A stretch of 64,000 nt of DNA from Oscillospiraceae bacterium (lineage in GTDB: Bacteria; Bacillota; Clostridia; Oscillospirales; Oscillospiraceae), in the NCBI GenBank assembly GCA_009785345.1, contig WQWL01000001.1, positions 62,001 through 126,000 of the forward strand, in the 5' to 3' direction. The translations under genes and the position numbers were made by a program. Below the pieces are notes generated by a model that was given only the letters and a program-made list of their open reading frames with translations, had not been told where the DNA came from and did no database searches. Below are positions 34,701 through 58,927 of the stretch, piece by piece; the first letter of the stretch is position 1, and each line of letters starts with the position of its first letter.

Positions 34701-34804
34701 GCATTGTGCACTTGGCTCCAATGCTGAAAAAGTATTATAAAATACGCCGTTGGGATGCTAATGGTGTGCCAACAGCGAAGTTATTAAGGAAGCTCGGGAT
34801 ATGA
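31727..34804 (+). CDS. Iron alcohol dehydrogenase fused to aldehyde:ferredoxin oxidoreductase
   Basis: 1025 residues with no internal stop. Residues 1-396 are an iron-dependent alcohol dehydrogenase: FGGGSPMDCAKG, TTAGTGSE and metal ligands D210, H214, H279 and H293. After a short linker, residues 402-1025 are a tungsten/molybdenum bis-pterin oxidoreductase: YIGGKGLAAK, cluster cysteines C682, C685, C689 and C878, and GLGYATANRGGCH. Separately these convert aldehyde to alcohol with NAD(P)H and carboxylic acid to aldehyde with ferredoxin. Inference: one chain could channel acid to alcohol. GGAGAGGAA precedes the ATG. Two moeA genes lie 4-7 kb away. Confidence 0.9.
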   Translation: MFKLYCRIYQFIFKCAAYCLPWRKPELLEGAGSIDKLPALIKQRGINTVLLVTDSTIMSLGLTDELQAALRDADIQTAIYDKTVPNPTLENIEDAYKIYKENNCKGIIAFGGGSPMDCAKGVGVRVARPRTDIRRMKGLLKVIVPLPQIFAIPTTAGTGSETTVAAVVVDSKTKDKYALMDPTLIPRVAVLDPTLTLKLPPFVTATTGMDTLCHAIEAYIGRSNTKTTREMAKLATKLVFENLYTAYSDGMNVQARTNMLKAAYCGGVAFTRAYVGNVHAVAHALGGTYGVAHGLANAVVLPYVLDDYGTKIYKSLAELADVVGIKGNTNEQRAKGFITAIRELNLKMNIPTTIDEIEEEDIPALAKHSHKEANPTYPVPRIFSQADFTSIYERLMGKSGINGYAGKMARIDLTSGDISNFMLPKDDLKKYIGGKGLAAKIIYDSLDRKIEAFSDENLIVITTSPLNRSSFPSSSRYNISTISPLTGLLVSSNCGGDFGLKLKAAGYDAIVISGKASSKTYIDINENGIELKDATAMWGKTTTETKEMLGDGGKLVIGAAGENLVRYACVVNQERVAGRGGVGAIFGYKQIKAIVVNGNAAAIKIANSARLKKLNAKWISTLKNHPLTGKQLPEMGTAALVRQMQERGLLATKNFQYGTFDNYDKVSGETLRDNYLIKTKGCLSCPVKCGRIVEHEGIEIKGPELETIGLLGPNLMHDDLERIIRVNYLCDEYGMDTMSFGGSVGFAMELSEKELWNNGLKFGECENLEELVSKVATRDGIGDDIADGVRLMSVKYGGKEFAVHSKGMELAAYDPRAAQGMGLGYATANRGGCHLNGGYLVVMEGLGLGVSGNTTRGKSAFAVFFQDLMESASALGACLFTTYAVFPPVSIHNQKNIIVKMVYSMMPNFGGAVAFIHRHPWIMDFNISAMIPFPFAYQQVTGNKMDIGKFVQTGERIFNLERMINIRQGLTDGDTLPARLVDQPQKDGNEKSIVHLAPMLKKYYKIRRWDANGVPTAKLLRKLGI

Positions 34805-41824: not shown

Positions 41825-43522
41825 ATGTCACTTCCGAAAACACACCAACTCAGACTTGGTGAAGTACTACTTGAATCAGGATATTTAACTGAGGAAGAGC
41901 TTAACAAGGCTCTCAGCATACAACAGTCATCACCAACGAGAAAGCGACTAGGTGAGGTTTTGATCGAAACCGGTATTATAACAGAGGATCGATTAAATAC
42001 TGCACTTTCGACACGCCTTGGGATAAAGTATGTTCCAATCAGTGAATGTCCTATAGAACTTAGCGCAGTTGCATTAATTCCAAAATCAGTTGCATTGAAG
42101 CATTGCCTGATAGCGATAAAAGTTGATCGAAACATATTACACATATTAATCAATGACCCACTTAACTATTATGCAATTGAAGATGTAAAGTTAATATCTC
42201 GTGCTCAACATGTCGAAAGCATGGTCTGCAAACGTGATGAAATTCTGCATGCCATAAACGAAAGCTATTCAGAAATCGAAACACAAAATGCAACTCGTAG
42301 TGCTAACGAAGCTGCAGGTGAAACCAGTGCGCTTACATATGTCGATATTTCTGAAACAGCTGACGATACACCGGTTGTAACATTGATAAATTCAATGCTA
42401 AACAAAGCACATAGTGCTGGTGCTAGTGATATTCATATTGAACCATTTGAAAACCAAACACAGATAAGAATTCGTGTTGATGGTCAAATCGTTGATTATA
42501 CGACATTATCACAATCACTACACAGCTCAATGACTGCTCGAATAAAGATACTTAGCGGAATGGACATTGCTGAAAAACGTGCTCCGCAAGATGGTCACTT
42601 CCGTGCAATGCTTGAAGATGCAGAGCTCAATGTACGTGTATCATCAATTCCAACTCTATATGGAGAGAAAATTGTTCTGCGATTTCTTAGTCAAACAGCC
42701 GTGCTTGATAACGCCACAACCTTTGGAATGCAACAAGATGATTATGACAAAATGTTGTCATTATTGCAATCCCCCCATGGTTTGATTTATATCACCGGAC
42801 CTACAGGTAGTGGAAAAACAACAACATTATATATGCTGGTTGAACTATTATCAAAACGAAATGTAAATATTGCTACTGTCGAAGACCCTGTAGAGAAGGC
42901 AATACATAAAGTCAATCAAACGCAAATCAATCCACTAGCCGGATTGACTTTTGAAACCGGATTACGCTCTATACTACGTCAAGATCCGGATATAATAATG
43001 ATTGGTGAAACACGTGACACAGAAACAGCAAGTATATCTGTTCGCTCGGCTCTTACAGGGCATCTGGTGCTATCCTCATTACACACCAATGACTCAGTCT
43101 CTGCAATAGTGCGACTCATTGATATGGGTGTCGAAGACTATTTAGTATCCAATTCACTCGTCGGCGTTGTCGCGCAACGATTAGTCAAGAAAATCTGTCC
43201 ATTTTGTCGTGAAGAATATGAGGCAACTGAATCAGATATGCGCTCTATGAACACAACAGATATAAAAGTACTTGCAAGAGGACGTGGATGTCATAACTGC
43301 AATAATACAGGATATAAAGGAAGAGTTGCAATACATGAAATACTAACAATTGATGCAAAAATCAGAAACCTCATAACACACAGCTCCGGGATTGATGAAG
43401 TATATGCCTATGTAAGAGAAAATAATATGATAAAAAGTCTACAGACAAGCCTTATTAGTCTTGTTAAGGAAAGAAAAACAACATTAGAAGAACTACTTAA
43501 GCTTACATATTTCGTACAGTAA
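41825..43522 (+). CDS. pilB: Type IV pilus assembly ATPase PilB
   Basis: 565 residues. An N-terminal MshEN-like domain (RLGEVLLESGYLTEEEL, repeated in RLGEVLIETGIITEDRL) precedes the GspE/PilB ATPase. Walker [11 protein letters not shown] is near residue 324, the Asp box and Walker B read QDPDIIMIGETRD, and the zinc site has CPFC and CHNC. It powers pilus extension at the inner face of the membrane. AAGGAGGAA precedes the ATG. It is the first gene of the plus-strand pilus operon. MshEN repeats in other bacteria bind c-di-GMP, which may apply here. Confidence 0.95.
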   Translation: MSLPKTHQLRLGEVLLESGYLTEEELNKALSIQQSSPTRKRLGEVLIETGIITEDRLNTALSTRLGIKYVPISECPIELSAVALIPKSVALKHCLIAIKVDRNILHILINDPLNYYAIEDVKLISRAQHVESMVCKRDEILHAINESYSEIETQNATRSANEAAGETSALTYVDISETADDTPVVTLINSMLNKAHSAGASDIHIEPFENQTQIRIRVDGQIVDYTTLSQSLHSSMTARIKILSGMDIAEKRAPQDGHFRAMLEDAELNVRVSSIPTLYGEKIVLRFLSQTAVLDNATTFGMQQDDYDKMLSLLQSPHGLIYITGPTGSGKTTTLYMLVELLSKRNVNIATVEDPVEKAIHKVNQTQINPLAGLTFETGLRSILRQDPDIIMIGETRDTETASISVRSALTGHLVLSSLHTNDSVSAIVRLIDMGVEDYLVSNSLVGVVAQRLVKKICPFCREEYEATESDMRSMNTTDIKVLARGRGCHNCNNTGYKGRVAIHEILTIDAKIRNLITHSSGIDEVYAYVRENNMIKSLQTSLISLVKERKTTLEELLKLTYFVQ

Positions 43523-43676
43523 TATTGTGAGGTGACATTAGTTTGAATGAATTCAAACTAACGAAAGAATATGCCACTTGCTCTCCCTATGGGAAACCGC
43601 AAGTGAAGCATGAAATGACCGTCCCTTCTCATGGTCATTTTGTGTCTAGAGATTTTCGAAAGGAATGGTCATTATA
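43523..43676 (+). ncRNA. Structured leader element, copy 1 (before pilT)
   Basis: Between pilB and pilT. Helix 1 is TTAGTTTGAA/TTCAAACTAA (43538-43561) with a TGAA loop. Helix 2 is ATGC+CACTTGC paired with GCAAGTG+AA+GCAT (43571-43611), capped by TCCC-TAT-GGGA and AAACC. Helix 3 is AAATGACC/GGTCATTT (43613-43640) followed by TTTTGTG. Segment 43615-43625 can also pair with the ribosome site GGAATGGTCAT (43662-43672). Copies occur before pilM and scpB. Confidence 0.7.
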
Positions 43677-44732
43677 ATGCATATCAATGAACTGCTTGCA
43701 AAAGCAAGAGCTGAACGAGCAAGTGATGTCCACATTACAGTTCAACGTAATCCCCTATTTCGCATAGATGGGGTGCTGCACGAGACAGCATATTTGCTTA
43801 ACATACCTGAAAAGCGCGAAATGGTGCTTTCTCTTCTTACTGAAAAGCAACGTAAGAAAGTCGAAAACACCATTGATGTTGACACGAGCTATGAAACTGA
43901 TGATGGCTTGCGCTATCGTGTTAATGTGTTCTATCAACAGCAGCAAATCGCCGCTGCCATAAGACTTCTCAATGAACAGATACCCACATTTGACGAGTTG
44001 GGACTCCCAGACTCACTTCGATCACTTGCTGATGAGCCTCGTGGACTTATTCTAGTAACTGGACCAACCGGAAGCGGTAAATCTACCACTCTTGCAGCAA
44101 TGGTTGACTACATCAACACGAAAAAAGCATGCCATATTTTAACTATTGAAGACCCCGTTGAATATGTATACAAGCAAAAAATGGCAATGATACATCAACG
44201 CAATGTTGGTGAAGATGTGGAAAGTTTTTCTGGTGCGTTAAAGAGTGCAATGCGCGAAGACCCTGATGTTATACTTGTTGGAGAAATGCGAGATTTTGAG
44301 ACAATATCTGCAGCAATAACTGCCGCTGAGACAGGGCATCTGGTTCTCTCCACACTACACACCACCGGTGCAGCAATGACAATTGATCGAATCATTGATG
44401 TATTCCCACCCCATAGTCAACAACAAATTCGCACACAACTCTCAGCTGTACTTAGAGGCGTCATTACACAAACTCTATTACCGAAAGCGAGTGGTATTGG
44501 TCGTGTTGCGGCATTTGAAATTATGATAGGAACAGACGCTGTTTCTACTTTAGTACGAGAAAGCAAAGGACATCAACTCAACTCAATCATACAAACAAGC
44601 TCACGTCAAGGTATGGTCTTACTTGATGACTATCTTGCCAATTTGGTAAGAAGCGGCGTAATAAAAAAAGAAGCAGCTCTTGAAAAAGCTACAAATAAGA
44701 CAGAATTTCTTTCAGCTATCGAGCGCATCTAA
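43677..44732 (+). CDS. pilT: Type IV pilus retraction ATPase PilT
   Basis: 351 residues from the ATG at 43677; an ATG four codons earlier lies inside the ribosome site AAGGAATGGTCAT. The N-terminal PAS-like domain begins MHINELLAKARAERASDVH. The ATPase has Walker A GPTGSGKST near 128, Walker B DPDVILVGEMRD, and the HLVLSTLHTT histidine box. It pulls pilin back into the membrane, so the pilus is probably retractile. The leader before it is structured. Confidence 0.95.
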   Translation: MHINELLAKARAERASDVHITVQRNPLFRIDGVLHETAYLLNIPEKREMVLSLLTEKQRKKVENTIDVDTSYETDDGLRYRVNVFYQQQQIAAAIRLLNEQIPTFDELGLPDSLRSLADEPRGLILVTGPTGSGKSTTLAAMVDYINTKKACHILTIEDPVEYVYKQKMAMIHQRNVGEDVESFSGALKSAMREDPDVILVGEMRDFETISAAITAAETGHLVLSTLHTTGAAMTIDRIIDVFPPHSQQQIRTQLSAVLRGVITQTLLPKASGIGRVAAFEIMIGTDAVSTLVRESKGHQLNSIIQTSSRQGMVLLDDYLANLVRSGVIKKEAALEKATNKTEFLSAIERI

Positions 44733-44868
44733 TATTATTATTTGAAATGGCTAATTTTTATCAATAATTACACGAAGATATAGTATAAGAGCTACTCGTT
44801 ATATATTAATATTACGAGCAAAATATTAAACAACAACAAATTATATGGTAATGGAAAGGAATAAGGAA

Positions 44869-45300
44869 ATGAAACTTCAAAAAATTCTCAAGAATAGAAA
44901 AGGCTTCACATTAATGGAGCTAATCATCGTCCTTGTCATTGTCGCTATATTAGCAGCCGCGCTTATCCCGTCGTTTCTAAACTTTGCAACCCGAGCACGC
45001 GAGGAATCACTGTATGCTCAAGCCAGAGTAGGTATGGTCGCCGCGCAGGTACTGATAACAGAAAGTGGTAAGCCGATAGCCGATGCAAAAGATGACAGAG
45101 TTACGCTTACATATGACCAATTTATTAGTAGAGTAAGAACCTCAACAGAAGGTGTAGATTTTTATAATTTAGTAGTGGATGACGTAGATAATCCAGACGG
45201 ATTTTCTGACTTCGTTATTGCTAAAGGTGGTCTTCGTATTGTAGGAATAACATATGAAAAAAATACTGATGAAAAAGTAATTATCACACCTCCCGCATAG
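44869..45300 (+). CDS. pilA: Major type IV prepilin-like protein
   Basis: 143 residues from the ATG at 44869, which has AAGGAA upstream; an ATG 24 bases earlier lacks one. A 12-residue basic leader ends in glycine, cleaved before FTLMEL, so the mature protein has F1 and E5. A 20-residue hydrophobic helix follows, then a small globular domain of about 100 residues without the disulfide loop of Gram-negative pilins. Its place after pilT and before the peptidase suggests the main subunit. Confidence 0.88.
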   Translation: MKLQKILKNRKGFTLMELIIVLVIVAILAAALIPSFLNFATRAREESLYAQARVGMVAAQVLITESGKPIADAKDDRVTLTYDQFISRVRTSTEGVDFYNLVVDDVDNPDGFSDFVIAKGGLRIVGITYEKNTDEKVIITPPA

Positions 45301-45385: not shown

Positions 45386-45416
45386 GCGCCCGCTTCATAA
45401 AAATGCAAGCGGGCGC
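45386..45416 (+). other. Strong GC-rich hairpin between pilA and pilD
   Basis: GCGCCCGCTT (45386-45395) pairs perfectly with AAGCGGGCGC (45407-45416) around an 11-base loop. No T-run follows on either strand. It may protect the pilA mRNA 3' end or attenuate read-through into pilD, giving more pilin than peptidase. Confidence 0.65.
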
Positions 45417-45441
45417 ACAAATAGTAAGGAAGCATAGAATA

Positions 45442-46212
45442 ATGATGTATGACTTAATCACAATCTACACATTTCTTGTAATCGTTGGAGCTTGCATTGG
45501 TAGCTTCATCAATGTTGTTATATCGCGCTTGCCGATTAAAGGCGCGTTTTTAGCAAGTAAACGCTCGCGTTGTCTGAAATGTGATAAAGAACTAAAACCA
45601 TATGATATGATTCCAATTCTTTCCTGGCTAATTCTAAAAGGGCATTGCAGAAATTGTAAAATGAAAATCCCAATTCAATATCCTCTGGTTGAACTATCTT
45701 GCGCACTCCTTGCAGTTGTGACCTTTATGCGATTTGGTTTAAGTCTTGAAACAATTCTCGCATTTGGTGTGACAGTTACCCTACTTGCAATCTCAGTGAT
45801 TGATTTGCAGACATCAAAAATACCAAACTCACTAGTAATTGCAATTGCCGTTTTCGCTGTTGCCGCAATTTGGTTTTTTCCGCATGCCACACTGCTTGAA
45901 CGAGTTATCGGCTTTTTCATAATAAGCATACCATTGCTCATTATCACTCTAGTAGTAAATGGAGCATTCGGCGGCGGTGACATTAAACTAATGGCAGCAT
46001 GCGGTTTTTTACTCGGCTGGCAAGACACATTACTAGCGTTCTTCATAGCACTACTACTAGGCGGAGTCTGCGCAATATTTCTCATATCTACCGGCAAACG
46101 AGCTCGTGGCGAACATATGGTCTTTGGACCTGCAATTAGTCTTGGTGTGGCAATCTCACTCTTTTTTGGATATGACATCATTTCTTGGTATCTCACACTA
46201 ATTACCTTTTAG
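45442..46212 (+). CDS. pilD: Prepilin peptidase
   Basis: 256 residues from ATG at 45442, preceded by AAGGAAG; the frame extends further upstream through the pilA-pilD hairpin but lacks a ribosome site. A24-family aspartic protease and N-methylase: about seven membrane helices, zinc-binding CLKC and CRNC in the first loop, catalytic aspartates in VIDLQTSKIPN and FGGGDIKLMAA. It cuts the leader from all four prepilins of this locus and methylates the new N-terminus. Confidence 0.94.
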   Translation: MMYDLITIYTFLVIVGACIGSFINVVISRLPIKGAFLASKRSRCLKCDKELKPYDMIPILSWLILKGHCRNCKMKIPIQYPLVELSCALLAVVTFMRFGLSLETILAFGVTVTLLAISVIDLQTSKIPNSLVIAIAVFAVAAIWFFPHATLLERVIGFFIISIPLLIITLVVNGAFGGGDIKLMAACGFLLGWQDTLLAFFIALLLGGVCAIFLISTGKRARGEHMVFGPAISLGVAISLFFGYDIISWYLTLITF

Positions 46213-46278
46213 CCTAAACTATATTGAACATATTTTTATTTTGAGTAACAATTATTATAAATATGGAGAATTGTGATC

Positions 46279-47466
46279 ATGCCTAGATATACATATTTAG
46301 CAATTAACCTAACAAATAATAAAGTACACGGAGAGCTAGACGCGCGTGATGATGAAGATTTACGGCGTTTACTTCGAGCTCAAAACCTTGTGCCAACTAA
46401 ATACAAGGAAATTGAAGACAAGAGCACTGTCTATCATATGAAAGCAAATGACGTTGGCGAGTTTTCTAGACAGCTTGCCGGTATGCTCGCAAGTGGTATA
46501 ACCATTTTGCGTGCAATGGAAATTTTAAAGAACCGTGATTTTTCGCCTAAAATAGTTGCAATCTATTCGAAACTACATAGAGATGTTCAAATGGGACATA
46601 CTCTTTCTGAGGCTATGCGATTACAAGGAAAGGCATTTCCTGATTTATTAGTAAATATGTATGCATCAGGTGAAGCTAGCGGTCAATTAGAGAAAGTTGC
46701 CGAGAAGATGGCGGTGCACTATGAAAAGGAACATCGGTTAAATTCAAAAGCAAAAGCTGCTATGACCTATCCTATGATACTTCTTGTAACTACCATTGTC
46801 GTTGTGTTACTTTTATTCACCCTCATTCTTCCCAACCTGCTCAGTGCATTTGAAGGATTCGATTTGCCTGCGATCACTCGGGCAATGCTATCAATCAGCA
46901 CATTCATGGTCAGCTATTGGTATATCGTAATTATCGGTATTCTCATAATCGTTCTCGCAATTCAAATGCTTATGACAATAGAGACGGTTAGATATCAGTT
47001 CGATAAATTAAAACTGAAAATTGTGAAAGTCGGCAAACTGCTCAAAATTATCTATACAGCGAGATTTGCCAGAACACTTTCTTCATTATATTCAAGTGGG
47101 ATACCAATGATTCGTGCTCTTGAAATTACATCTACCATCATTAACAACAAGTATATTGCTGAACAATTTACAGATGTGATAACTAATGTTCGAAATGGTG
47201 ATTCCCTCTCATCCTCAATTGGGAAAGTTGAAGGGTTCGACAAGAAACTTTCGACAACCATCATGATTGGCGAGGAATCCGGAAGACTTGATTCCATGCT
47301 TGAATCAACTGCTGAAAGTTTTGACTATGAATCCGAGATCGCCCTGGACAAACTTGTACAACTTATTCAGCCCATCATGATTATTATAATGGCTGCGATA
47401 ATAGGTACAATCATGTTAGCAGTAATGTTGGCAGTAATGTCAATTTATCAAGGCGTAGGCGCATAA
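46279..47466 (+). CDS. pilC: Type IV pilus inner-membrane platform protein PilC
   Basis: 395 residues from the ATG at 46279, with GGAGA upstream; a GTG six bases earlier is weaker. Two GspF domains are seen (EFSRQLAGMLASGITILRAME and FARTLSSLYSSGIPMIRALE) with three membrane helices. It links the ATPases to pilin assembly in the membrane. Confidence 0.94.
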   Translation: MPRYTYLAINLTNNKVHGELDARDDEDLRRLLRAQNLVPTKYKEIEDKSTVYHMKANDVGEFSRQLAGMLASGITILRAMEILKNRDFSPKIVAIYSKLHRDVQMGHTLSEAMRLQGKAFPDLLVNMYASGEASGQLEKVAEKMAVHYEKEHRLNSKAKAAMTYPMILLVTTIVVVLLLFTLILPNLLSAFEGFDLPAITRAMLSISTFMVSYWYIVIIGILIIVLAIQMLMTIETVRYQFDKLKLKIVKVGKLLKIIYTARFARTLSSLYSSGIPMIRALEITSTIINNKYIAEQFTDVITNVRNGDSLSSSIGKVEGFDKKLSTTIMIGEESGRLDSMLESTAESFDYESEIALDKLVQLIQPIMIIIMAAIIGTIMLAVMLAVMSIYQGVGA

Positions 47467-47530: not shown

Positions 47531-47679
47531 AAAGGTGACAAATTTGGATAAATTCAAACTTCCGCAAGAATGTGCCAATTCGCTCTCCCTATTGGAAACC
47601 GCAAATTAATGCACGAAATGACCATTCCATATTCATGGTTGTTTTGTGATTAGCAAGTACGAAAGGAATGGTCATACCA
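47531..47679 (+). ncRNA. Structured leader element, copy 2 (before pilM)
   Basis: Between pilC and pilM. It aligns along its length with the pilT leader. GTGC/GCAC closes helix 2 (compare ATGC/GCAT in copy 1, a covariation), CTCTCCCTATTGGAAACCGC forms its cap, and ATGACCAT/ATGGTTGT forms helix 3 followed by TTTTGTG. ATGACCATTCC (47618-47628) is perfectly complementary to the ribosome site region GGAATGGTCAT (47665-47675). Confidence 0.7.
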
Positions 47680-49119
47680 ATGAAAACGTCAGTTCATATT
47701 TCAACAGATATGGTGAAAGTTGTATCATACACAAAGTCAGGAACACATATAACCGTAAAAGACTATTCAAGTTATCCACTTCCGGAGGAATGCATGTTGA
47801 GTGGAGTTATTCTCGATGTCAACCCAATTCTCGAAGCTCTGCGTTCACTTAAATCTGCTAATCAACATTTGTTTAAAGAAACATCATTGGTTATAGACGG
47901 CAACTTTGTATATTCAAAAAAGATAACTATTCCTAACAAGCTTAACAAACTAATGTGTGACGAGATTATTCGTGATGAATTTTCAGAAATTTCTACAGAC
48001 TCAGAAAACTTAATTTGCGACTACTCTACTCTTGGATATAATTCCGATGGTTCAAAAAATATACTTGCTTGTGCCATCGAGAGTTCTCATGCTCAATCAT
48101 ATATCTCTCTTTTCAATGCGGCAGATATCAAGCTCACATCCCTCCATCTTGGAATATTTACAGTTTTGCAGTTTGTTAGCAGCATCACAAAATTGGAACA
48201 TGAATCATTTGTTCTAAATTTGGTTGATGATGTTGTAATGCTTTCAATGATTTTCCAAAATGGTGATAATGTTTTTCAATCAAGAACAAGGCTTTACGGT
48301 GATGATCGTTCAGCGTTGGTCAATGGCACACTAGACGAACTTTCCGGTATCATCCAATTTAATAGATCTCAAAACTTTGACGAAATAAAGTATTGCTATT
48401 ATCTGGGACTTACTGACTCTGATATGGAAGAAATAATACGCGATACCTCATATCCTGAGATTAGCTTTTCAAAACTTAACTTATACAAAAATGCTAAAAA
48501 AGCAGAAATTCTTCCACCAAATGCTCACTTTGCTTACTTTAATGCATTAATGCCGGATTCAAAAAACGACATACTTTATTGCATAAAAATGTTGAATAAA
48601 GCCAAGCAACTTAGACAGCCAAAAAGAACATGGATTCCTGTCCTCGCAGCTGTTTTTATAATGGTTGCAACGACAATAACCGGTCTGTGGATATTGACAT
48701 CAAGTGTTGAGCGAGATATCCGTGAGATAAATGAATTTCTCGAAGCTCCATATACTGTTGCTGAAAGGAATAGATTAGAGGAACTTGATTTCAACACAAC
48801 TCATATAACTACACTTTATGAGTCTGCTATAGATATGCAAGGAGAAACAGATAGTGAGCACAACATAAATAGACAAATCCTCGATAGTCTTATGAATACC
48901 GCCGGAGAGATTGTCGAAATAAATGGAATAAACTTCAACTATTCTAATGGTACGATTACTGTTTCCTGTTCAAGTTCAACAGAGTACGACGCATCAGCAT
49001 TTGTTGAGTTATTGAGAACAAATTCAATGCTTACAAACTTTAATGTCTATTATACCGGCTACGCTACAGGTGCAGATGGGGTATTTATATTCAGCATTGA
49101 TGTAGTAATTCCCGTATAA
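47680..49119 (+). CDS. pilM: PilM-PilN fusion, pilus alignment protein
   Basis: 479 residues from the ATG at 47680. Residues 1 to about 300 resemble actin-like PilM: an SVHISTDMVKVV start and later GDDRSALVNGTLDEL. After a basic segment comes one membrane helix (about 322-345) and a periplasm-side domain of about 130 residues with coiled coil and a C-terminal beta sheet, as in PilN. PilM and PilN are normally two proteins that bind each other, so this is a natural fusion. pilO follows after 48 bases. Confidence 0.82.
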   Translation: MKTSVHISTDMVKVVSYTKSGTHITVKDYSSYPLPEECMLSGVILDVNPILEALRSLKSANQHLFKETSLVIDGNFVYSKKITIPNKLNKLMCDEIIRDEFSEISTDSENLICDYSTLGYNSDGSKNILACAIESSHAQSYISLFNAADIKLTSLHLGIFTVLQFVSSITKLEHESFVLNLVDDVVMLSMIFQNGDNVFQSRTRLYGDDRSALVNGTLDELSGIIQFNRSQNFDEIKYCYYLGLTDSDMEEIIRDTSYPEISFSKLNLYKNAKKAEILPPNAHFAYFNALMPDSKNDILYCIKMLNKAKQLRQPKRTWIPVLAAVFIMVATTITGLWILTSSVERDIREINEFLEAPYTVAERNRLEELDFNTTHITTLYESAIDMQGETDSEHNINRQILDSLMNTAGEIVEINGINFNYSNGTITVSCSSSTEYDASAFVELLRTNSMLTNFNVYYTGYATGADGVFIFSIDVVIPV

Positions 49120-49167: not shown

Positions 49168-49761
49168 ATGACAAAACGTGGTTTGAGTAAGCGAGAAAGA
49201 ATACTCTTTTTCATTGCATTATTGCTTTTATTAACCTACTTGACTGTTCAGTTTGCAATCTATCCATTATTCAGCAAATACATTGATGGAACCCAAGAAA
49301 GAAATCAATTGATTACTGAAAGAGCACAGGTGGAAGCTGATTTACTAAATGCAGCAGAAATTGAAGAACGCAACATGGCTGCAATAGTGAAATACGAACA
49401 GATTCTTCAAGGGTATCCGGCATTTATCCCCAATGAAGAAATTGATAGAATACTGACAGATCTATGTATCACAAACGGATTGAAGCCCACGGCTCTGCGT
49501 TTTACGAACTCATTTGGTGCTCCACAACCAGGAGATGATAGCGATGATCAATTGGAAGACTCATACCTATTTACTGTTGTCGTAGCAACAATGAATATGA
49601 CAGGTAATTACTCCTCTTTGGTTGAATTAGTTGATGACATAACTGAAATGCAATTTATTCATATAACAAATCTTGGATACTCTGTCAATAACAACAGTAT
49701 ATCAGAAGATGAAAACGCAAATATAACAATGGCATTTGAACTTACATTTACAAATCCATAG
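49168..49761 (+). CDS. pilO: PilO-like pilus assembly protein
   Basis: 197 residues. One membrane helix near 12-32, a coiled coil (about 40-75), then an alpha/beta domain ending in ITMAFELTFTNP, as in PilO. PilO pairs with PilN to form the alignment complex between platform and pilus. AGGGAATGATTATTC precedes the ATG. It is the last gene of the plus-strand operon. Sequence similarity alone is modest; position and topology carry the call. Confidence 0.75.
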   Translation: MTKRGLSKRERILFFIALLLLLTYLTVQFAIYPLFSKYIDGTQERNQLITERAQVEADLLNAAEIEERNMAAIVKYEQILQGYPAFIPNEEIDRILTDLCITNGLKPTALRFTNSFGAPQPGDDSDDQLEDSYLFTVVVATMNMTGNYSSLVELVDDITEMQFIHITNLGYSVNNNSISEDENANITMAFELTFTNP

Positions 49762-50002: not shown

Positions 50003-50503
50003 TTACTGCCCGTCCATTAATGGTGGGTTCACAGCATATGAGCGTGAAATTGATGCACCGGTGCTGCTTGAGCTTACCGTTACTGTTATTAAAAAGTCAG
50101 GTGCATCGGTTGCGGGTGTTACCACGAAGCTAACATCTTTACCTTTATAGAAATTCTTAGGAAATACTATACTGTCATTCTTTTGCAATATACCGTCGAC
50201 AACACTATAAGTTATTAATGATGAATCAACAATCATTATCACAGAGTTATCTGTGATATTTTTAACATCTGAAGCTTGCATCATACTGCTAACAATCGTG
50301 TTCCCAACATTATCAAGAAGCAAATTATACTCAGCAATATCATTTGCTCTAGCATAAGCTTTTAGCATTGGCGATAAAACTGATATAGCAGTCGTGGCAA
50401 TAATTGCAAACAGTACACAAACAACAATAACCTCAATAAGGGTAAATCCTCTTTTTGATATGAATATCTTTCGCACTCTTTTTATAATTAGCTCTACATT
50501 CAT
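50003..50503 (-). CDS. Minor prepilin-like protein
   Basis: 166 residues from an ATG at 50503 with GGTAGGGA upstream. A 19-residue basic leader ends ISKRG before FTLIEV; E5 is present and a hydrophobic helix follows. The remaining 115 residues look like a small beta-rich head. It is the last of four minus-strand pilus genes, so probably a minor pilin of a tip complex. Confidence 0.8.
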   Translation of the reverse strand: MNVELIIKRVRKIFISKRGFTLIEVIVVCVLFAIIATTAISVLSPMLKAYARANDIAEYNLLLDNVGNTIVSSMMQASDVKNITDNSVIMIVDSSLITYSVVDGILQKNDSIVFPKNFYKGKDVSFVVTPATDAPDFLITVTVSSSSTGASISRSYAVNPPLMDGQ

Positions 50504-50527
50504 AACCAATCCCTACCTTACTAATTA

Positions 50528-50602: not shown

Positions 50603-50932
50603 CTATGGTGTTGGAGTAAATGCTATTATCCCGTCTGCATTGTATAAATTAACTCCATGCGATACTTCAATATCTGCATCATCTGATGTGAAAGTGATTA
50701 TCTCTGCCTCTCCGTCATAACTTTCTAATATTAAAGCATTAAACATATTTTGCGATGTTTCGGCATCAGCAATCGATGCAGCTGTCATCGAAGTTGAGAA
50801 CCTGATTATCGTCACAATTGTAGTCAATAGAATGCTCAATATTAACAGACTAACTATTGCTTCCATGATGGTAAACCCCCTCTTCGAGCGGAGAATTTTT
50901 TTTGTTGCGCATATAGTAGATTCTAGTTGCAT
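50603..50932 (-). CDS. Minor prepilin-like protein
   Basis: 109 residues from ATG at 50932, 13 bases after the preceding stop; an ATG at 50980 would overlap that gene. The leader ends LRSKRG before FTIMEA with E5, followed by the hydrophobic helix. The head is very short (about 65 residues), so it resembles the small GspI/PilV group. The ribosome site is weak, which suggests coupling to the upstream gene. Confidence 0.72.
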   Translation of the reverse strand: MQLESTICATKKILRSKRGFTIMEAIVSLLILSILLTTIVTIIRFSTSMTAASIADAETSQNMFNALILESYDGEAEIITFTSDDADIEVSHGVNLYNADGIIAFTPTP

Positions 50933-50945
50933 AATACTCTGCAAT

Positions 50946-51650
50946 CTACTTTTCAACTGATTCAGATTCAATAATTTCATAGCTCACTAACACCCACTTA
51001 CCAAAATCACTAAAATTCATCTCTCTTATTTCGCCATCGGCATTTTCGTCCGACAATATACCATCTCTATACTCGTAGGTTGCTACCGTTGTGATAAATC
51101 TAGGTGTTTCTCTCAAACTTGCAGATTCAATCTCTACGATTGTACAAACAGTCATTTGCGCATTTACTGTAGCCGTTTTTGGGATACGAGGGGTTGGTGG
51201 TATCGTTTCAGGCACTGCATCGACGGGTCCTGCAAACCTAACATCCTGGAATAGTATTTCTAACGCTATGCTTTCAACAGCACTCATATCGACTCCCGGT
51301 ATATCAATATCAAGCTCAACCGTCTCAATTGGTACTTCTGAATTCGTGTTATTGTAGATTAGTTGTGCAATTTGGTATGCTAACGAATTTTCAAAATCCT
51401 CATCGAGATAATCTGTTGATGAAGGCGTCATTTCCAGACTGTGTTTAATACTTCCATGTATTGAGTCTGTCATAACTATTGCTGTATTGTACTTACTTTG
51501 TCTAACATTTGAACCAATGTTTGCACTTGCAGCAGTTAGAACGGAAGCGCCGACAGCCAAAAGCAAGAACATGATTCCAAGCACAAACATTAATGACATG
51601 CCTGATTTATCTTTCAATATTCTAGAAGCTTTGTTTATAAGTCGCATCAT
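50946..51650 (-). CDS. PilX-like pilus assembly protein
   Basis: 234 residues from ATG at 51650, which overlaps the preceding stop by one base (TGATG) and has GGAGG five bases upstream. A short basic N-terminus ends KSG before MSLMFVLGIMFLLL, then a hydrophobic helix without the glutamate at position 5 of ordinary pilins, as in PilX/GspK proteins. A long soluble domain with acidic stretches follows. GspK-like subunits cap pilus tips. Confidence 0.68.
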   Translation of the reverse strand: MMRLINKASRILKDKSGMSLMFVLGIMFLLLAVGASVLTAASANIGSNVRQSKYNTAIVMTDSIHGSIKHSLEMTPSSTDYLDEDFENSLAYQIAQLIYNNTNSEVPIETVELDIDIPGVDMSAVESIALEILFQDVRFAGPVDAVPETIPPTPRIPKTATVNAQMTVCTIVEIESASLRETPRFITTVATYEYRDGILSDENADGEIREMNFSDFGKWVLVSYEIIESESVEK

Positions 51651-54600
51651 CAACGCCTCCATTCTCTATTTCTTTGCTCGTGATATCGCAAAATATATCG
51701 ATTAACTCTGCGTCCATTACGTTTACATCTATTGTACTCATTGATTCTTCGAACAGCTCTTGCATTGCGCTTTCGCATGTATCTTTTAAAAATTCTTGTT
51801 TGAGTAAATCCAGCTCCACCAAATAGTGTAATTACGCCGGTTGCAATTGCAAAACCATCTCTACTTGTTGTGTCTTCATCACTATCAGCTATGCCATCTT
51901 CTTCGGAATTTCTAACATTGTCTGTGTAGGATTCATTTGGGCTTCCCTTTCCATTATCATCACCGGTTAATTCATCTGGTACATCTCCATATTCGCCTCC
52001 ATCATCTGAGGTGTTAGATTCATTATCATTGTCACCCAAGTCATCCATACAGCTTTCATCTACTGCTATTTCATCCATTTCGCTCTCATGCATCTCGCTA
52101 AGTTCTATATTCCATTCTGATGCAGTCGTTGCTATCAACTCAGGCTCACCTTCAATAACGATAGGCCACGCGGTTGGAACACTTTGTGTTGATGATATTA
52201 TGCGATTAACATATGGATAGGTGTTTTCGTAAACAAAATCGTACATAGGTGTTGATGATGGCAGCGTCCAGATCGACGGTATTTGATTTGTCCAATAAGG
52301 TAAAGCTTCAATCGTTATATATAGCTCTTCAGTATCGACCATTGTGAAATCGATTACCGGCTGTGTGAATACTATATAATCAAAGCCATTAACAGAGCTT
52401 ATAGTGTTATTTTCGCTATCTATAATCATGACTTCAGATGTGGATATTCCACCGAGATAATATACTTCCATGTATTTTGCCGACGTTCCGGCTTCAGAGT
52501 TTATGATTGGATATATTTCTGTACCATTATTTGGTGCAGGTGCCAGGTAAATAACGCTTGTTATTTTTCCGGTATTTTCCCCAACCACACCGCCAGCTTT
52601 TGCTCCTGAGCCTCCTGTTGGTACAATAACATTTTCACTATTTATATCCAGAATTGAACTTACAATAGAAATATCTGTTATCATCCCTGTATTCTGCCCT
52701 GCTATTGAGCCTACATACACAGCTGAGCCTACTTGTGCATTAACATTCCCTCGTATTGGTGATGTTGATCGCGATGTACCATCAAACACTAATGTAACCC
52801 TGCTAATTGTGCCATTATTCCGGCTAAATAGGCCAACATAACTCGTTTGGACTGAAGTTCCAGACTGTGTATAGTTAATCGTTAACCCTTTTATAATATT
52901 GCCACTACCATCAAATATTCCGTCGAATATCCCCATTACAACAGCCGCCGAGTTGCCTAATGATATATTTGTAAAATCAAGGTCGCGTTCCTGTATAAAG
53001 TTAACACCTGATGTTACTGTAGGAGCACTCATTTGAATCATTTGTTGCGGAGTGCGTATATAAATTTGTGACGGATTCGTTGCAGCTGCAAAATTAGTAT
53101 AAATAGACTTTGCAAAACGTGTATCTATCCAATAACCGGTTGCTTGGTCGTTTACATAAATCTCACCTGATACACCTGATGCAACCGTTGTCGGAATTAC
53201 AGCATAGTAATAGCTAGTCTCAACACCAACTCCGGGTCGTGCTGTATCTATAGAATTTATATAGGTATTATTACCATTACTTGCATTTATGCTTATACCA
53301 AATGTTCCCGGTCTATCAATCATAACAGCATATCCATACCGTGTTACCTGAACATCATTATTATTGCTGAGCTCTGGTAACCCAGAACTACTCTGTGTTG
53401 AATAAAAACCAACAGTTCCATCAGAATATTCTTCAAAGTAGACAATATCCTTAGCTGTAACAGTTGCTACAGGCCATGTCATGGTTGGCGATGTGCCGAG
53501 ATATGGATATGGGTTATATTCACTGAGTATTGTGTTGTTCAGTGTTAGCACAGATGACTGTCTCCAAAATTCACCAAGCTCACTACTTGCATTCAGTTCT
53601 TGTGTTGTACGAGGCTCACCGCGAACTACTGCTGATGTTGGGAAAATGTTGAAGTTTGCTGTTTGTGGTGCTTGTGTAGGGCGCAGTACTGATGAATACG
53701 TACCGGAGAGATAGTATGCATTTATTTCTGTTCCTTCTCCTGCTGCTGTGATAGGGGCAATAGCAGTAGTTGAACTTCCTGATGCTTGTGCAAGGAATAA
53801 GGCATTCTCTATTGTGCCGTCGTTTGTTCCAACAATTCCTCCTGTTTTATCTGATCCGGTAATCGGTTGTTGTGATATAGAAGTCGTTGAGTTTCCTGAA
53901 ACAAAGGCAACATTTCTAACAACTCCATTGTTTATAGATGCAAAACTGCCATTATTGCTTCCATTTTGAATATATGAGTTGTAAAGTGTCAGATTTTCAA
54001 TAGTTCCGTTTACTCCAATTGTATTAAATAGCCCTTTGTTATCTCTTGTAATATTTGTGCCTGTAGTTGAATTTACTAATGACAAGTTACTAATATTATT
54101 CCCTTGCCCGTTATATACACCTGTGAACTCACCACGAACTATGTTAGCAAGCTGAGCCACAGTAGGTTGATTATTGCCCGGAGGTGATACAAGACTTACT
54201 CCAAGTCCTGTTTTTGTCATATCGATATCTATCTCTTGAATAAACGTATGTTCATGATCATTGCTGCAAAGTGCAACACTCTTTTCAATGTATAGCGATA
54301 TGTTTTGTAACTGCCACGGTGTGCGTATTGCATGCTCTGTTGGATGCCGATTTTTTACATTACTCAATACAGGAGGAGTGCCTGAGCCTGAACCCAGATC
54401 CACAGGATAAACTTCTTTGGCAAAGAATGGGTTAACAAATGCTTTAATTCCTGGAAGCTCAACTTTACCAGATGAGCTGGAAATGAACAGTATAATTGGC
54501 TCAATCGGATTTTGTGCACTTTCTGCTGCACTTAAAAGCAATCTTGCAGGAAAATAAACAAACTTACGTGGTTGCAATTGCGGAACTGGTAAATCCAAAC

Positions 54601-57600
54601 CGGATAGTTGCATTTGCCCCCCCGGTCCACCAGCATTCAGTTCTGCCCACGGACTCCAGGAATTATTTATATATTGCGAGAATACCACCGGACGATTTGC
54701 GTTTGTGTTAAAGCCGGTCGGTATTTCAGCACCGTATCCTGCTTCAGTTATAATTGGATTATCATATCTTAAATAATCCATAATTCTCAAGTTGCCAGCT
54801 GCATCATAATATCGTGCAAATATTCCTATTCCACCTCCGGTATATTTTTCGTAGTAAATCAAACCCAACTCATCAGGGAGATCATTTGGTATAAAGGCGA
54901 CAACTGGCCATTCTTCTCTTTCTATAGATGGAACTGTTCCTATGGGAAAAGGATATAGAAATTGTGTATGGTTTTGCATTGCATCAAAGTTTATGTTATT
55001 TGTATTATTTATAGTCCAATTATTGTTAAATTGCACTGTACTATAACTTTCTACAATGCTTTTTGTATCCATAGCAGGATAATCCAACTTTTGTCCTGTT
55101 GCCCTGAGATTATAGTCAGTATAAGATGCAGTACCACCATCTAAAACTGTTTGGAATGGTCTAAGTGCCGGTTCACCGGAAAGGTACACAGCGTTGTTGC
55201 CATATGAAGTATTAGATCCTGTAAATGGACGCATTTCTGCTCTTCCGCTTCCTATTCTAGGAGCGACTGCAAGATACATGATGTTATCAATTTCGCTTGC
55301 TGTCACACCCGCAATGCCTCCAACTGAAGCAGTGTTTGTTCCTCTGATTGCAGGGCGTGCAGATGTAGACGTAAATATTACATCGTTCAAAGCACCTAAG
55401 TTATTTCCAACAATCCCGCCAACATTTGACGTTCCTCGTACAGCAGCAGGATGGTCGCTCCAATCAGGTAATTGTCCCTGTGCATTTCGAGTGACAACTT
55501 GTTGTACAAAGCAACTTTTAACAATCCCAGAACTCAAGTTTGTTCCAACAATTCCTCCGACATTTGAGCGGCCTACTATGGTGTCTGTTGTGTATGAATA
55601 TAATCTAAGTGTTACTTGTTCAATAATTCCTGCATTTTCTGCAAATAATCCAACATTGTCAGAGCTCGGAGTATTAATCATCAGGTTTGATATCCACATA
55701 TTCGTACCGACAAATCTTCCGGCAAATTGTTCTGTGATAATTGCATTTTTTGCAAACAATCTGCGTGTAGTCGTATTTGTGTTAAATGTATTGCCGCTTG
55801 ATTTCACTACTTCACCGTAGTAGTTTATGGCATAATCTATGTTTAAATGTTGTGTGAAAACGCCACTTGTGTCCCCTGCAACAAAGTTTATATTATCCAT
55901 CTGCCTTGCTGAACGTATGCTTGCATTTGTTGTATTAGTAAAATTAGCAAATAATGGATTATAGCTTTCAACGACTCCCGAACCAGGAGCATTTACTCTG
56001 CTTAAAATGTTCTCTACAGAAGTAATTTCATCAATTGAAGTCTCTGCATTTGGGAACAGTCTAATATCTATCTGCTTATTTGTTGGCGAACTTGCATATT
56101 CAAGAGCAAGATAATTCGGTATATAAATGCGGTACATAACTGGATTATCAATACCATCCTCTGGAATATTAATCGTAGGAACAAACTGCTCAGCAGCCTG
56201 CCAGTCCTCGTCAAGTACTGCTTCCTCTATGCCATCAACAATCACTAATACTCTCCATTCATTATCAATTTGAATAATTTTATAGAAGTGTCCTTCTCCG
56301 TACTCAAACAAATATCCCTGCGTATTCGGATAAAACTCAATGGCATAACCATCGTGTGTTACAAGTGCGGACGAACCTGCAGATACAATAGTAGTGCTTA
56401 AATATGGACTTACATATCTCCGTGAATAATCTGAGTAAAATTCATAATAAACCAACGCACCTGCATGGATTATTGTTTCACCATAAATATCTTCCCATCC
56501 CATTTCATGGCTCTCTTGTAGAGGATCAAGTATGGACTCTTCTATGTATGCAAACGGGTTGTTATTCGCCAGTATTGGATATGGATATTGAGTATATTTG
56601 TTCTTCTGAACACCGTCACCATATGCAGCAAGATAATCGATGTTAACATCAAAGCCCGAAGGTAAGCGAACGTTGGCAATATCGCTTAGTTCTTCTCTCG
56701 TTAGTGATCCCCAATCAGCACCAGAGTCTGTCGCACCATTTGCAATATAGTGGGAATTTCTGATCGTACCGGTATTCGTTCCGGCAATTCCGCCTGTATT
56801 GATGTTTGCATCATTATAAATTGCCACAAAGTTAGTAGCATAGCTGTTTTCTATAGTTTCTGTACTTTCGTTCAGTCCGGCAATTCCTCCCAGATTAGTA
56901 CCACTTGAAACGGTCGCTGTTGATGTATAGCTAATAGACTGATATGTATCCGGATCAATCTCAACATCTTCTATGTTTACTCTGGCATTATTATGGCAAT
57001 ATGTGATTTTCCCATCATTACTACCAACTAATCCACCTATATTCCCACCATTTGCAATAACAGAACCTGTGCCGATGAAAACTAATTCATTTTCACCATT
57101 TTCAGCTTTCATATATTGGAATGTGCGTGTATCACTATGTGTATTGAAATATCCGGCATTAAATGAATACGACAATACTCCCTTATTTTCTATGCGCCCG
57201 ATAAGACCACCGATATTACCGCTATCACCCAAAACATTCGCAAAGCTATTGCTACGGATTACCTGTCCCCCATCTAAAATTCCTGCAATAGAACCAACAT
57301 TCGTGGCATTTGGTGCGATAATTTCTGCATCAAACAATGAAACGCCGACAATATTCCCTTGAACATTTGAAAATAATCCAACATTTTGATTATTATATGC
57401 TGACTTATCAGAAGTATTTATTCTTAAATACTCGATTCTCCATTGTAAATTTGTTCCATTTACAGCGTTGTATGAGCCTGTCAAATTTGTAATCGGTCTG
57501 AAGTTGTATGGTGTTCTATTTATTTCTGCGGCCATCTCATTTATCAAGGTCCTCATGTCAATATCAGCTGTTTGCGCATAATTGCCATCAGGAACATAGA

Positions 57601-58927
57601 TTATATTATTAAGATGTCTGACTGATGTAACTTCATATGTGCCATTTGGCCATTTGTCTAAAAAGTGCGTATTTGCATACATAGGTGACTCAATATTTTT
57701 ACCATTTTCTATTGAAATCCCGGCACGCACATTCATTGAATGGTCTATGTTGCTATACTTTTCAACAATGTTGTTAGGTTGAGTAAAAATATTTTCTTCA
57801 ATAAAGTCAAGAATCCAAATATAACGATTAAACAAACCACCAACATCAACACCATGTTGGTTAACCACAACTCTCGTATCAGTATCGAGATATACAGCAT
57901 GATTGTCATTGTTTTGAGTTTGTTCGATTGCAGTTCTAAAATCTGTATAAACTGTTGTTGAACCACCTATGTTGGATGAATCATTAAAACTCAATAACAT
58001 TCGTGCTTCACTATCTGCATTCTCTGTGTCGAATATGTAGAACATGCGCTGTTCTGCATTAGCAACATCTAAAGGTTGTTGCAATAAATACTCTGCAAAC
58101 AAGACATTTTTTTCTCGAACAGGATTAGTAGCATCCGGACTCACATTCAGACCGAACTGTTGCTCTCCCTGTGATGCGTGCAGTTGCCATGCTCCATCAT
58201 CATAGTTCATACCATCATAAATGCGGACTATATCTTCAATCGGCAATGTTGGTGCAATACCGGTATAGTCAACACCGTAATATCCTTGACGTCGACTATA
58301 TGCAATACTAGGATAAGCACTTTCCATGCCGCGTTCGCCAATTATGTCGCTATTTCCATCCGTACCACCATATGCAAATACAGTTTGCCCACTAAGATCA
58401 TCGCCATAGAATATTGACATGACAACACCTGTCCTGACGTTAAATTCCATCAGAATCGCACCATCTAATATTTCTTTATTTACAATGATTTCGTCAAGAA
58501 GTGCATAGAAATCATCAATAATTTTATTTTCGCCGAAAACATAGTTTGATGGCTTGCTTATGAAGTAAACATTATCAATGTTCTCTGTGTCATTAACGGG
58601 AAAAACATCAAGACAATTTGAAACCTTGCCTACAAGGTTAGCATCGGCAAATCCTTGAACAAGATCATTATCTTCCAAATAAAAGCCATCGGTTAGCATT
58701 GTGTGCAAATTGCCTTCTACCGTTGCTCTCGTGAGTTGATTTTGCATGGCAACATAAAGTGTCCGAGCAATATTTTCCCGATTTTTTTGTTGCTCATGCC
58801 TAATCATGGCTATAAATGATGGTATTAGCGTTGCTGCAAGGATTGCAATAACAACTAACACCACAATTACTTCAGTTAGAGTAAAACCTTTGTTTGCATT
58901 TCGCGCTCTAGTAAACAATATACTCAT
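51650..58927 (-). CDS. Giant prepilin-type adhesin with GLUG-like repeats
   Basis: 2425 residues, uninterrupted. A 14-residue leader ends ANANKG-like (NANKG) before FTLTEV with E5 and a pilin helix, so it is a prepilin. Four modules begin near residues 439, 1007, 1534 and 1956 with RTPQQM/RTPWQL-like lines and contain GLUG-type repeats (GGLVGSNDGKI, GGIVGTNDGTI, AGGVVGENTGKI). From about 2255 there is an acidic stretch, then a hydrophobic helix (near 2355-2372) and an arginine-rich end. Inference: a surface adhesin exposed by pili or anchored at both ends. The ATG at 58927 is very close to GGAGAGG; a TTG three codons later is better spaced. Confidence 0.85.
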   Translation of the reverse strand: MSILFTRARNANKGFTLTEVIVVLVVIAILAATLIPSFIAMIRHEQQKNRENIARTLYVAMQNQLTRATVEGNLHTMLTDGFYLEDNDLVQGFADANLVGKVSNCLDVFPVNDTENIDNVYFISKPSNYVFGENKIIDDFYALLDEIIVNKEILDGAILMEFNVRTGVVMSIFYGDDLSGQTVFAYGGTDGNSDIIGERGMESAYPSIAYSRRQGYYGVDYTGIAPTLPIEDIVRIYDGMNYDDGAWQLHASQGEQQFGLNVSPDATNPVREKNVLFAEYLLQQPLDVANAEQRMFYIFDTENADSEARMLLSFNDSSNIGGSTTVYTDFRTAIEQTQNNDNHAVYLDTDTRVVVNQHGVDVGGLFNRYIWILDFIEENIFTQPNNIVEKYSNIDHSMNVRAGISIENGKNIESPMYANTHFLDKWPNGTYEVTSVRHLNNIIYVPDGNYAQTADIDMRTLINEMAAEINRTPYNFRPITNLTGSYNAVNGTNLQWRIEYLRINTSDKSAYNNQNVGLFSNVQGNIVGVSLFDAEIIAPNATNVGSIAGILDGGQVIRSNSFANVLGDSGNIGGLIGRIENKGVLSYSFNAGYFNTHSDTRTFQYMKAENGENELVFIGTGSVIANGGNIGGLVGSNDGKITYCHNNARVNIEDVEIDPDTYQSISYTSTATVSSGTNLGGIAGLNESTETIENSYATNFVAIYNDANINTGGIAGTNTGTIRNSHYIANGATDSGADWGSLTREELSDIANVRLPSGFDVNIDYLAAYGDGVQKNKYTQYPYPILANNNPFAYIEESILDPLQESHEMGWEDIYGETIIHAGALVYYEFYSDYSRRYVSPYLSTTIVSAGSSALVTHDGYAIEFYPNTQGYLFEYGEGHFYKIIQIDNEWRVLVIVDGIEEAVLDEDWQAAEQFVPTINIPEDGIDNPVMYRIYIPNYLALEYASSPTNKQIDIRLFPNAETSIDEITSVENILSRVNAPGSGVVESYNPLFANFTNTTNASIRSARQMDNINFVAGDTSGVFTQHLNIDYAINYYGEVVKSSGNTFNTNTTTRRLFAKNAIITEQFAGRFVGTNMWISNLMINTPSSDNVGLFAENAGIIEQVTLRLYSYTTDTIVGRSNVGGIVGTNLSSGIVKSCFVQQVVTRNAQGQLPDWSDHPAAVRGTSNVGGIVGNNLGALNDVIFTSTSARPAIRGTNTASVGGIAGVTASEIDNIMYLAVAPRIGSGRAEMRPFTGSNTSYGNNAVYLSGEPALRPFQTVLDGGTASYTDYNLRATGQKLDYPAMDTKSIVESYSTVQFNNNWTINNTNNINFDAMQNHTQFLYPFPIGTVPSIEREEWPVVAFIPNDLPDELGLIYYEKYTGGGIGIFARYYDAAGNLRIMDYLRYDNPIITEAGYGAEIPTGFNTNANRPVVFSQYINNSWSPWAELNAGGPGGQMQLSGLDLPVPQLQPRKFVYFPARLLLSAAESAQNPIEPIILFISSSSGKVELPGIKAFVNPFFAKEVYPVDLGSGSGTPPVLSNVKNRHPTEHAIRTPWQLQNISLYIEKSVALCSNDHEHTFIQEIDIDMTKTGLGVSLVSPPGNNQPTVAQLANIVRGEFTGVYNGQGNNISNLSLVNSTTGTNITRDNKGLFNTIGVNGTIENLTLYNSYIQNGSNNGSFASINNGVVRNVAFVSGNSTTSISQQPITGSDKTGGIVGTNDGTIENALFLAQASGSSTTAIAPITAAGEGTEINAYYLSGTYSSVLRPTQAPQTANFNIFPTSAVVRGEPRTTQELNASSELGEFWRQSSVLTLNNTILSEYNPYPYLGTSPTMTWPVATVTAKDIVYFEEYSDGTVGFYSTQSSSGLPELSNNNDVQVTRYGYAVMIDRPGTFGISINASNGNNTYINSIDTARPGVGVETSYYYAVIPTTVASGVSGEIYVNDQATGYWIDTRFAKSIYTNFAAATNPSQIYIRTPQQMIQMSAPTVTSGVNFIQERDLDFTNISLGNSAAVVMGIFDGIFDGSGNIIKGLTINYTQSGTSVQTSYVGLFSRNNGTISRVTLVFDGTSRSTSPIRGNVNAQVGSAVYVGSIAGQNTGMITDISIVSSILDINSENVIVPTGGSGAKAGGVVGENTGKITSVIYLAPAPNNGTEIYPIINSEAGTSAKYMEVYYLGGISTSEVMIIDSENNTISSVNGFDYIVFTQPVIDFTMVDTEELYITIEALPYWTNQIPSIWTLPSSTPMYDFVYENTYPYVNRIISSTQSVPTAWPIVIEGEPELIATTASEWNIELSEMHESEMDEIAVDESCMDDLGDNDNESNTSDDGGEYGDVPDELTGDDNGKGSPNESYTDNVRNSEEDGIADSDEDTTSRDGFAIATGVITLFGGAGFTQTRIFKRYMRKRNARAVRRINEYNRCKRNGRRVNRYILRYHEQRNREWRR

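Follow-up and report, generated by a model that had tools for sequence, protein, structure and literature searches.

We analysed a window of 64,000 nucleotides from an Oscillospiraceae bacterium (contig WQWL01000001.1 of assembly GCA_009785345.1, positions 62,001 to 126,000), which contains an open reading frame (ORF) for a prepilin of 2425 amino acids, about 15 times the usual size of a pilin subunit. This protein, referred to here as the giant, is encoded next to a type IV pilus operon and is probably a modular minor pilin of a tip or priming complex, which would display a beta-helix stalk for adhesion. Positions of the features within the window are listed in Table 1.

The giant is a modular type IV prepilin

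By its sequence and gene context, the giant belongs with the modular type IV (minor) pilins. It combines a class III signal (G/A at position -1, Glu5 and a hydrophobic helix) with an added module that is not pilus-specific (PF07581, beta-helix fold), and it is encoded together with a type IV pilus machine and a prepilin peptidase. The ORF is a single open frame with an ATG start and no internal stop; the N-terminus reads MSILFTRARNANKG/FTLTEVIVV with predicted cleavage after G14. An earlier note, made from the letters of this DNA, had pointed out the prepilin signal G/FTLTEV with E5 on an ORF of this length. Profile searches agree, as Pfam N_methyl (PF07963, residues 9-34, E 1.4e-6) and NCBIfam TIGR02532 both matched over their cut-offs. 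A scan of named genomes with an N-terminal alignment yielded 25 loci, and Glu5 was kept in all 25 giant sequences. These had been found by an N-terminal query and are thereby biased towards sequences that keep the signal; a whole-protein search without that bias agrees, since every strong homologue with its start on the contig carries the pilin N-terminus. Homologues lacking it, of which the note had warned, were not among them.

The whole-protein search covered 99 genomes and gave some match in 23. Strong pilin-headed relatives are present in eight genomes of the same genus besides the giant's own and in one genome of another family (G065); sizes include 3162 (G002), 2957 (G005), 3252 (G006), 3300 (G007), 3044 (G008), 2871 (G009) and 1901 amino acids (G065). 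Homologues from independent metagenome-assembled genomes (MAGs) span 1759 to more than 3500 amino acids, lie mostly in type IV pilus loci and come mostly from guts of higher termites; the nearest relatives of the window's host are likewise termite-gut MAGs. In the accessible part of PMC7024585, the host table assigns the isolate labels Co191, Nt197, Th196, Emb289 and Lab288 to higher termites and does not list Pal332 and Cx337. Named loci (L) and genomes (G) overlap, several being evidently the same MAGs. Among 394 genomes of the order, 25 contain a match to the N-terminal domain with E 1e-12 or below, in 14 of them within an open frame of at least 1300 and up to 5261 amino acids (G581), and at least seven of 391 genomes of the class had such frames among the matches listed. 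Judged from these sequences, giant prepilins are a kind that recurs in Clostridia. The largest frame seen (L103, 4498-19998, G581:C14; at least 5167 of its 5261 amino acids in the fetched stretch) lies near PilD- and PilO-like genes. No plasmid records encoding the giant's N-terminal domain were found.

As the genome is a draft MAG (237 contigs, 86% complete), separate genes might have been joined by an error of assembly or annotation, a danger also named in the earlier note. The same architecture occurs, however, in independent MAGs, L064 aligns colinearly with the giant over 2054 columns (34% identity), and the named isolate Robinsoniella peoriensis (L084) encodes a distant giant of 3497 amino acids. 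We therefore reject a joined-gene artefact as extremely improbable.

A minor-pilin cassette beside the pilus operon

The giant heads a run of four genes on the minus strand, convergent to the plus-strand operon PilB-PilT-PilA-PilD-PilC-PilM-PilO. In loci fetched from relatives, the giant is accompanied by the same minor pilins; all three follow it in 12 of the 25 loci. As to the others, three have one or two minor pilins (L072, L073, L077), eight break off within the giant, L069 continues for only about 1 kb beyond it and L084 has no minor pilins there. PilO stands directly before the giant in 11 loci. All 15 sequences of either small prepilin keep Glu5, and all 15 of the protein encoded immediately after the giant lack it. 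Four minor pilins are co-encoded, one of them without Glu5, and the available portion of PMC9934059 describes one Glu5-less subunit among four as a hallmark of the HIJK tip complex. By elimination the giant could, as no more than a guess, be given the H slot of such a set. Of the options raised in the earlier note (polymerisation into pili, retention at the surface, a tip adhesin), the cassette favours a tip or priming position over bulk polymerisation. The family of the 125-residue prepilin (relatives in L060-L079) shows a further peculiarity, Glu as mature residue 1 in 14 of 15 members (G/E-x-x-x-E5), with Phe in the window's own copy. Pilins normally start with Phe or Met, so a mature Glu1 is unusual.

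Homologues next to PilX-like genes, a search proposed in the earlier note, turned up in many genomes with a complete type IV pilus locus, but the sequence match of the neighbouring protein to GspK/PilX is weak. A GspK model matched two of 14 members of the Glu5-less family (best E 0.0025), and neither a Pfam match of note nor a PDB chain was found by search.

Linkage to the pilus machine was followed in 20 genomes, 19 of the genus plus G065, several of them incomplete. Nine contain a close PilB, and all nine contain the giant; ten contain neither. In the remaining genome (G005) the giant lies beside PilM and PilO on a contig which is cut there, and PilB was not found. A rival idea is a type II secretion-like locus, with the giant as piston tip or substrate carrier of a pseudopilus-like device. 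The PilC-like protein scores best with GspF, below the cut-off, and the literature, as far as excerpted, places HIJK-like cassettes in both system types. Such a device is nevertheless very unlikely, since PilM, PilT, PilD and a PilB-type ATPase are united in one operon and PilT homologues occur in 22 of 23 genomes.

Predicted beta-helix modules on a pilin head

Four segments of the giant are pairwise alike (BLASTP E 9e-6 to 6e-18) and alternate with beta domains. To this extent the four GLUG modules described in the earlier note hold, whereas the Pfam stretches are not distributed one per module: Glug (PF07581) matched four stretches of the giant (E 1.9e-9), and both GLUG stretches from the genome search fall within module 1.

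An AlphaFold2 model of residues 6-880, based on 24 sequences, consists of a long N-terminal helix (12-65 in model numbering) and a confident beta-helix, with a mean predicted local distance difference test score (pLDDT) of 71.6. Comparison with the PDB gave 3n6z as top match (Z 28.9, 283 aligned residues, root-mean-square deviation (rmsd) 3.1), followed by M26 IgA1 proteases (Z 22.5-25.6) and polysaccharide-lyase-like beta-helices (Z 13.9 or lower). PDB pilins match the head over its N-terminal helix only. The model of residues 772-1420 (mean pLDDT 59.4) is poor outside the beta-helix and gave the same top matches (Z 16.7-22.4); a sequence profile of this region matched 3n6z weakly (E 0.024). 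The structure prediction suggested in the note thus yielded beta-helices for modules 1 and 2 and a long pilin helix in the head.

Modules 1 and 2 are predicted to be right-handed beta-helices closest to M26 IgA1 proteases, although a shared fold does not show function. Like 3n6z and these proteases (VIA Z 22.5-28.9, 19-22% identity, rmsd 3.1-4.7 Å, 266-298 aligned residues), the giant has a right-handed beta-helix with GLUG motifs; unlike the proteases it carries the helix on a pilin head, and it contains neither a HExxH zinc-protease motif (by regex) nor an M26 Pfam match. M26-type protease activity was rejected for lack of HExxH. This motif was found by regex in three (L063, L080, L103) of 44 sequences, some of them partial.

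An optional C-terminal tail

The earlier note had also read the C-terminus as an anchor without LPXTG. Its parts are present: residues 2201-2400 have a net charge of -26, residues 2358-2377 form an uncharged stretch of 20, the basic tail behind it amounts to +17, and no LPXTG motif occurs in the last 120 residues. The hydrophobic stretch itself is weak, with a Kyte-Doolittle 19-mer value of 1.22 versus 2.94 for the pilin helix and an estimated apparent insertion cost, summed over residues, of about +4.7 versus -2.3. Being weak by two scales, it can be called an anchor only provisionally, and unaided membrane insertion is doubtful. According to the positive-inside rule, a tail as basic as this one would be expected to stay cytoplasmic.

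A first definition of the anchor, using a 15-residue uncharged window, was satisfied by 8 of 29 giants, compared with 16 of 233 control ORFs. After inspection of missed ends (L061, L069, L072) it was relaxed to 12 residues, a mean hydropathy of 1.3 and a tail of +3, which gave 11 of 29 giants against 14 of 233 control ORFs of at least 300 amino acids; the controls include spurious ORFs, and three of the 29 are smaller prepilin-like ORFs (670, 1036 and 1475 amino acids). The hydrophobic stretch with basic tail was thereby found in 11 of 19 complete termite-type giants (Fisher p 4e-8 against the same controls) but was absent from ten other complete sequences, giants or large prepilins, and from seven further ones (0 of 17 in total; in the further set, L107-L110 repeat genomes already counted and L103 is open-ended). 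The anchor is therefore an optional add-on, missing from 8 of the 19 close relatives with complete sequence and from every one of the 17 more distant large prepilins.

The close group of giants has a common tail motif of the type ARAIRRIN. On a tree of the N-terminal domain, the anchor label needs seven changes, at least three of them forced by well-supported (starred) branches. Shuffled labels gave values as low in 215 of 500 cases, so the label shows no clustering beyond that of shuffling. This tree has long branches at L084, G028, G037 and L078, and no label was given to giants lacking a C-terminus, apart from L078, labelled anchored from a C-terminal part on a separate contig of apparently the same MAG (G013), and G010N, labelled anchorless from G010C. 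A profile of the tail found only the giant with significance, in 7 of 10 genomes, six of the seven sequences being part of the model itself; G013 and G065 matched only at E 0.16 and 0.5, and G010 not at all. By these patterns, the tail was gained or lost repeatedly; it is a real, recurrent and giant-specific feature which is evolutionarily dispensable.

A tie between anchor and retraction was dropped, the genomes being too few and confounded by descent. PilT of at least 67% identity is present in 10 of 11 anchored genomes, G005 with its contig-cut locus having a 45% copy only; among the anchorless genomes two reach 67% (G010 and that of L075), four have 51-55% and G065 none. A side observation concerns the linkers before the tail in L061, L062, L063, L072, L077 and L079. 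They are rich in Cys and Asp/Glu with runs like CDCDVCDC, the last 300 residues of these giants containing 16 to 36 Cys, and might serve metal binding or disulfide formation.

Linker, short hydrophobic stretch and basic tail have the tripartite look of a sorting signal, and sortase genes (PF04203) occur in 10 of 10 genomes tested. Cleavage by an unrecognised sortase-like enzyme, leading to a wall-bound giant, is quite improbable all the same. In the last 120 residues no LPXTG-like motif is found in 10 of 11 anchored giants, L074 having just NPSTN; sortases occur equally in genomes with anchorless giants (G010, G065); exosortase PF09721 was detected in 0 of 10 genomes, the giant's own being a draft. 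Anchoring by LPXTG and sortase or by exosortase is thus without support, and a general sorting signal was rejected, as the tail profile reveals the giant alone and no family of substrates. LPXTG wall-anchored repeat adhesins have a long repeat ectodomain, a C-terminal hydrophobic segment and a basic end. The giant resembles them in all three respects and differs by the missing LPXTG, the weakness of the hydrophobic segment, the length of the basic tail and a prepilin rather than a Sec-type signal.

Alternatively, the giant might be a surface adhesin held at both ends, in which the prepilin signal serves export and N-terminal anchoring, the C-terminal segment closes a wall-spanning loop and the protein never enters a filament. 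The hydrophobic segment, the +17 tail and its enrichment in close relatives over controls are in line with this arrangement. We regard it as unlikely, however, as all 25 giants keep the Glu5 needed for filament packing, the association with pilus genes is strict and anchorless relatives occupy the same operon place.

Proposed role and comparison with known systems

The preferred reading, a minor pilin at the tip, can be put as a sequence of steps. PilD would cut the giant after G14, and its pilin helix and the three minor pilins of the genes that follow immediately would assemble into a four-subunit priming or tip complex, the starting point for polymerisation of the major pilin. The remaining approximately 2300 residues, four beta-helix modules and beta domains, would form an adhesive stalk standing out from the tip, with gut surfaces or polymers as the presumed binding partners. 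For giants of this genus, the weak hydrophobic stretch and basic tail would retain the C-terminus at the membrane up to pilin uptake or beyond; the tail may hold the giant there before assembly or tether it permanently.

Several points weigh against this proposal. In the window the giant's cassette is convergent to the pilus operon and outside it. The Glu5-less protein is not a demonstrable GspK by sequence. The model of the pilin head is moderately confident, taking the whole-model mean pLDDT, and PDB pilins match just its helix. A membrane-spanning tail, if real, would hold the pilin back. A bolder variant of the permanent tether, which we consider a long shot, is a leashed pilus whose priming pilin is tied to the cytoplasmic membrane by the basic tail while its head leads the growing filament. 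If true, stalk and linker (perhaps about 50 nm) would limit extension to a short, wall-spanning, retractable adhesive piston, and the tail would be lost in lineages making long pili.

ComZ of Thermus thermophilus, a far smaller protein from a diderm, is reportedly a minor pilin with a beta-solenoid, proposed as a pilus-tip receptor in DNA uptake. By description the giant is likened to it as a beta-solenoid minor pilin with a proposed tip role, and the beta-solenoid module of ComZ is named in the available text of PMC8179133. The same portions of PMC8179133 count over 1,200 modular pilins, spread across 264 architectures, the most extreme multi-domain example named there having 860 residues. 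Streptococcus sanguinis PilB and PilC are modular adhesive pilins (PMC8179133, PMC9934059, each as far as accessible), and PilABC form a tip complex of three subunits, one of them Glu5-less (PMC9934059, accessible part). The giant shares with PilB and PilC the class III signal with Glu5, the pilin head, a C-terminal non-pilin module, the status of a minor pilin and a monoderm host, and its cassette likewise includes a Glu5-less partner. PilB has 50.5 kDa and one extra module, the giant 2425 residues and four repeated beta-helix modules; a C-terminal basic tail like the giant's is not mentioned in the accessible portions of the two papers. In open-licence PMC literature, the only match for GLUG combined with prepilin concerns Haloquadratum.

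Table 1. Features of the giant prepilin and its pilus locus, in window coordinates.
Feature	Position	Strand	Basis
Giant modular minor prepilin, 2425 aa	51650..58927	-	ORF; PF07963 and PF07581 over cut-off; homologues
Class III leader, residues 1-14, ending at G14; mature start F15, Glu5 = E19	58886..58927	-	TIGR02532/PF07963 matches; E5 in 25/25 giant sequences
Pilin head (long N-terminal helix ~17-70) and second conserved domain (~190-419)	57671..58885	-	AlphaFold2 model; alignment conservation
GLUG module 1, ~420-790, predicted right-handed beta-helix	56558..57670	-	Model pLDDT mostly >90 over ~425-585; VIA Z 22.5-28.9 to 3n6z/M26 IgA1 proteases
Inter-module beta domain A, ~791-1025	55853..56557	-	Sequence, 'YYE-YSD' pattern recurring further on; low-confidence model
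GLUG module 2, ~1026-1400, predicted beta-helix	54728..55852	-	Self-similarity; model, VIA Z 16.7-22.4
Inter-module domain B, ~1401-1590	54158..54727	-	Similar to domain C, E 0.005
GLUG module 3, ~1591-1830	53438..54157	-	Self-similarity to module 4, E 6.5e-18
Inter-module domain C, ~1831-1985	52973..53437	-	Self-similarity comparison
GLUG module 4, ~1986-2215	52283..52972	-	Self-similarity
Acidic linker, ~2260-2353	51869..52150	-	Composition
Marginal hydrophobic segment GFAIATGVITLFGGAGFTQT, 2358-2377	51797..51856	-	Composition, hydropathy
Arg-rich C-terminal tail, 2378-2425	51653..51796	-	Charge; private to the giant
Minor pilin without E5, K/PilX-like by position, 238 aa, overlapping the giant's stop	50946..51662	-	E5 in 0/15 family members; GspK match weak
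Small minor prepilin, 125 aa, E5 present	50603..50980	-	E5 comparison
Minor prepilin, 168 aa, E5 present	50003..50509	-	PF07963
PilO-like protein, named by position and shape, no family match over cut-off	49168..49761	+	Conserved in relatives
PilM	47668..49119	+	PF11104 over cut-off
PilC platform protein	46273..47466	+	PF00482, two stretches
PilD prepilin peptidase	45403..46212	+	PF06750, PF01478
Candidate major pilin PilA	44845..45300	+	PF07963
PilT retraction ATPase	43665..44732	+	PF00437
PilB extension ATPase	41825..43522	+	PF00437, MshEN

Other observations in the window and significance

Two fusions were noticed elsewhere in the window. In a plus-strand ORF of 1025 amino acids (31727-34804), near two MoeA-type genes, residues 27-395 correspond to an iron-containing alcohol dehydrogenase and residues 406-1025 to an aldehyde:ferredoxin oxidoreductase fused to it; among 12 genomes, only G002 has a full-length homologue besides the giant's own genome (76% identity), the other ten having partial ones at most. 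At 9860-12187 on the minus strand, LytB (IspH) is fused to ribosomal S1 domains, a fusion known in Clostridia.

With the giant, the size range of modular pilins grows from tens of kilodaltons to 2000-5000 residues. Proteins this large appear to belong regularly to the type IV pilus loci of some Clostridia, above all in termite guts. The giant provides a clear test case of how a machine that extracts pilins deals with a subunit bearing a huge folded ectodomain and a second membrane-seeking end, and the tailless giant of Robinsoniella peoriensis makes the anchorless form experimentally accessible.

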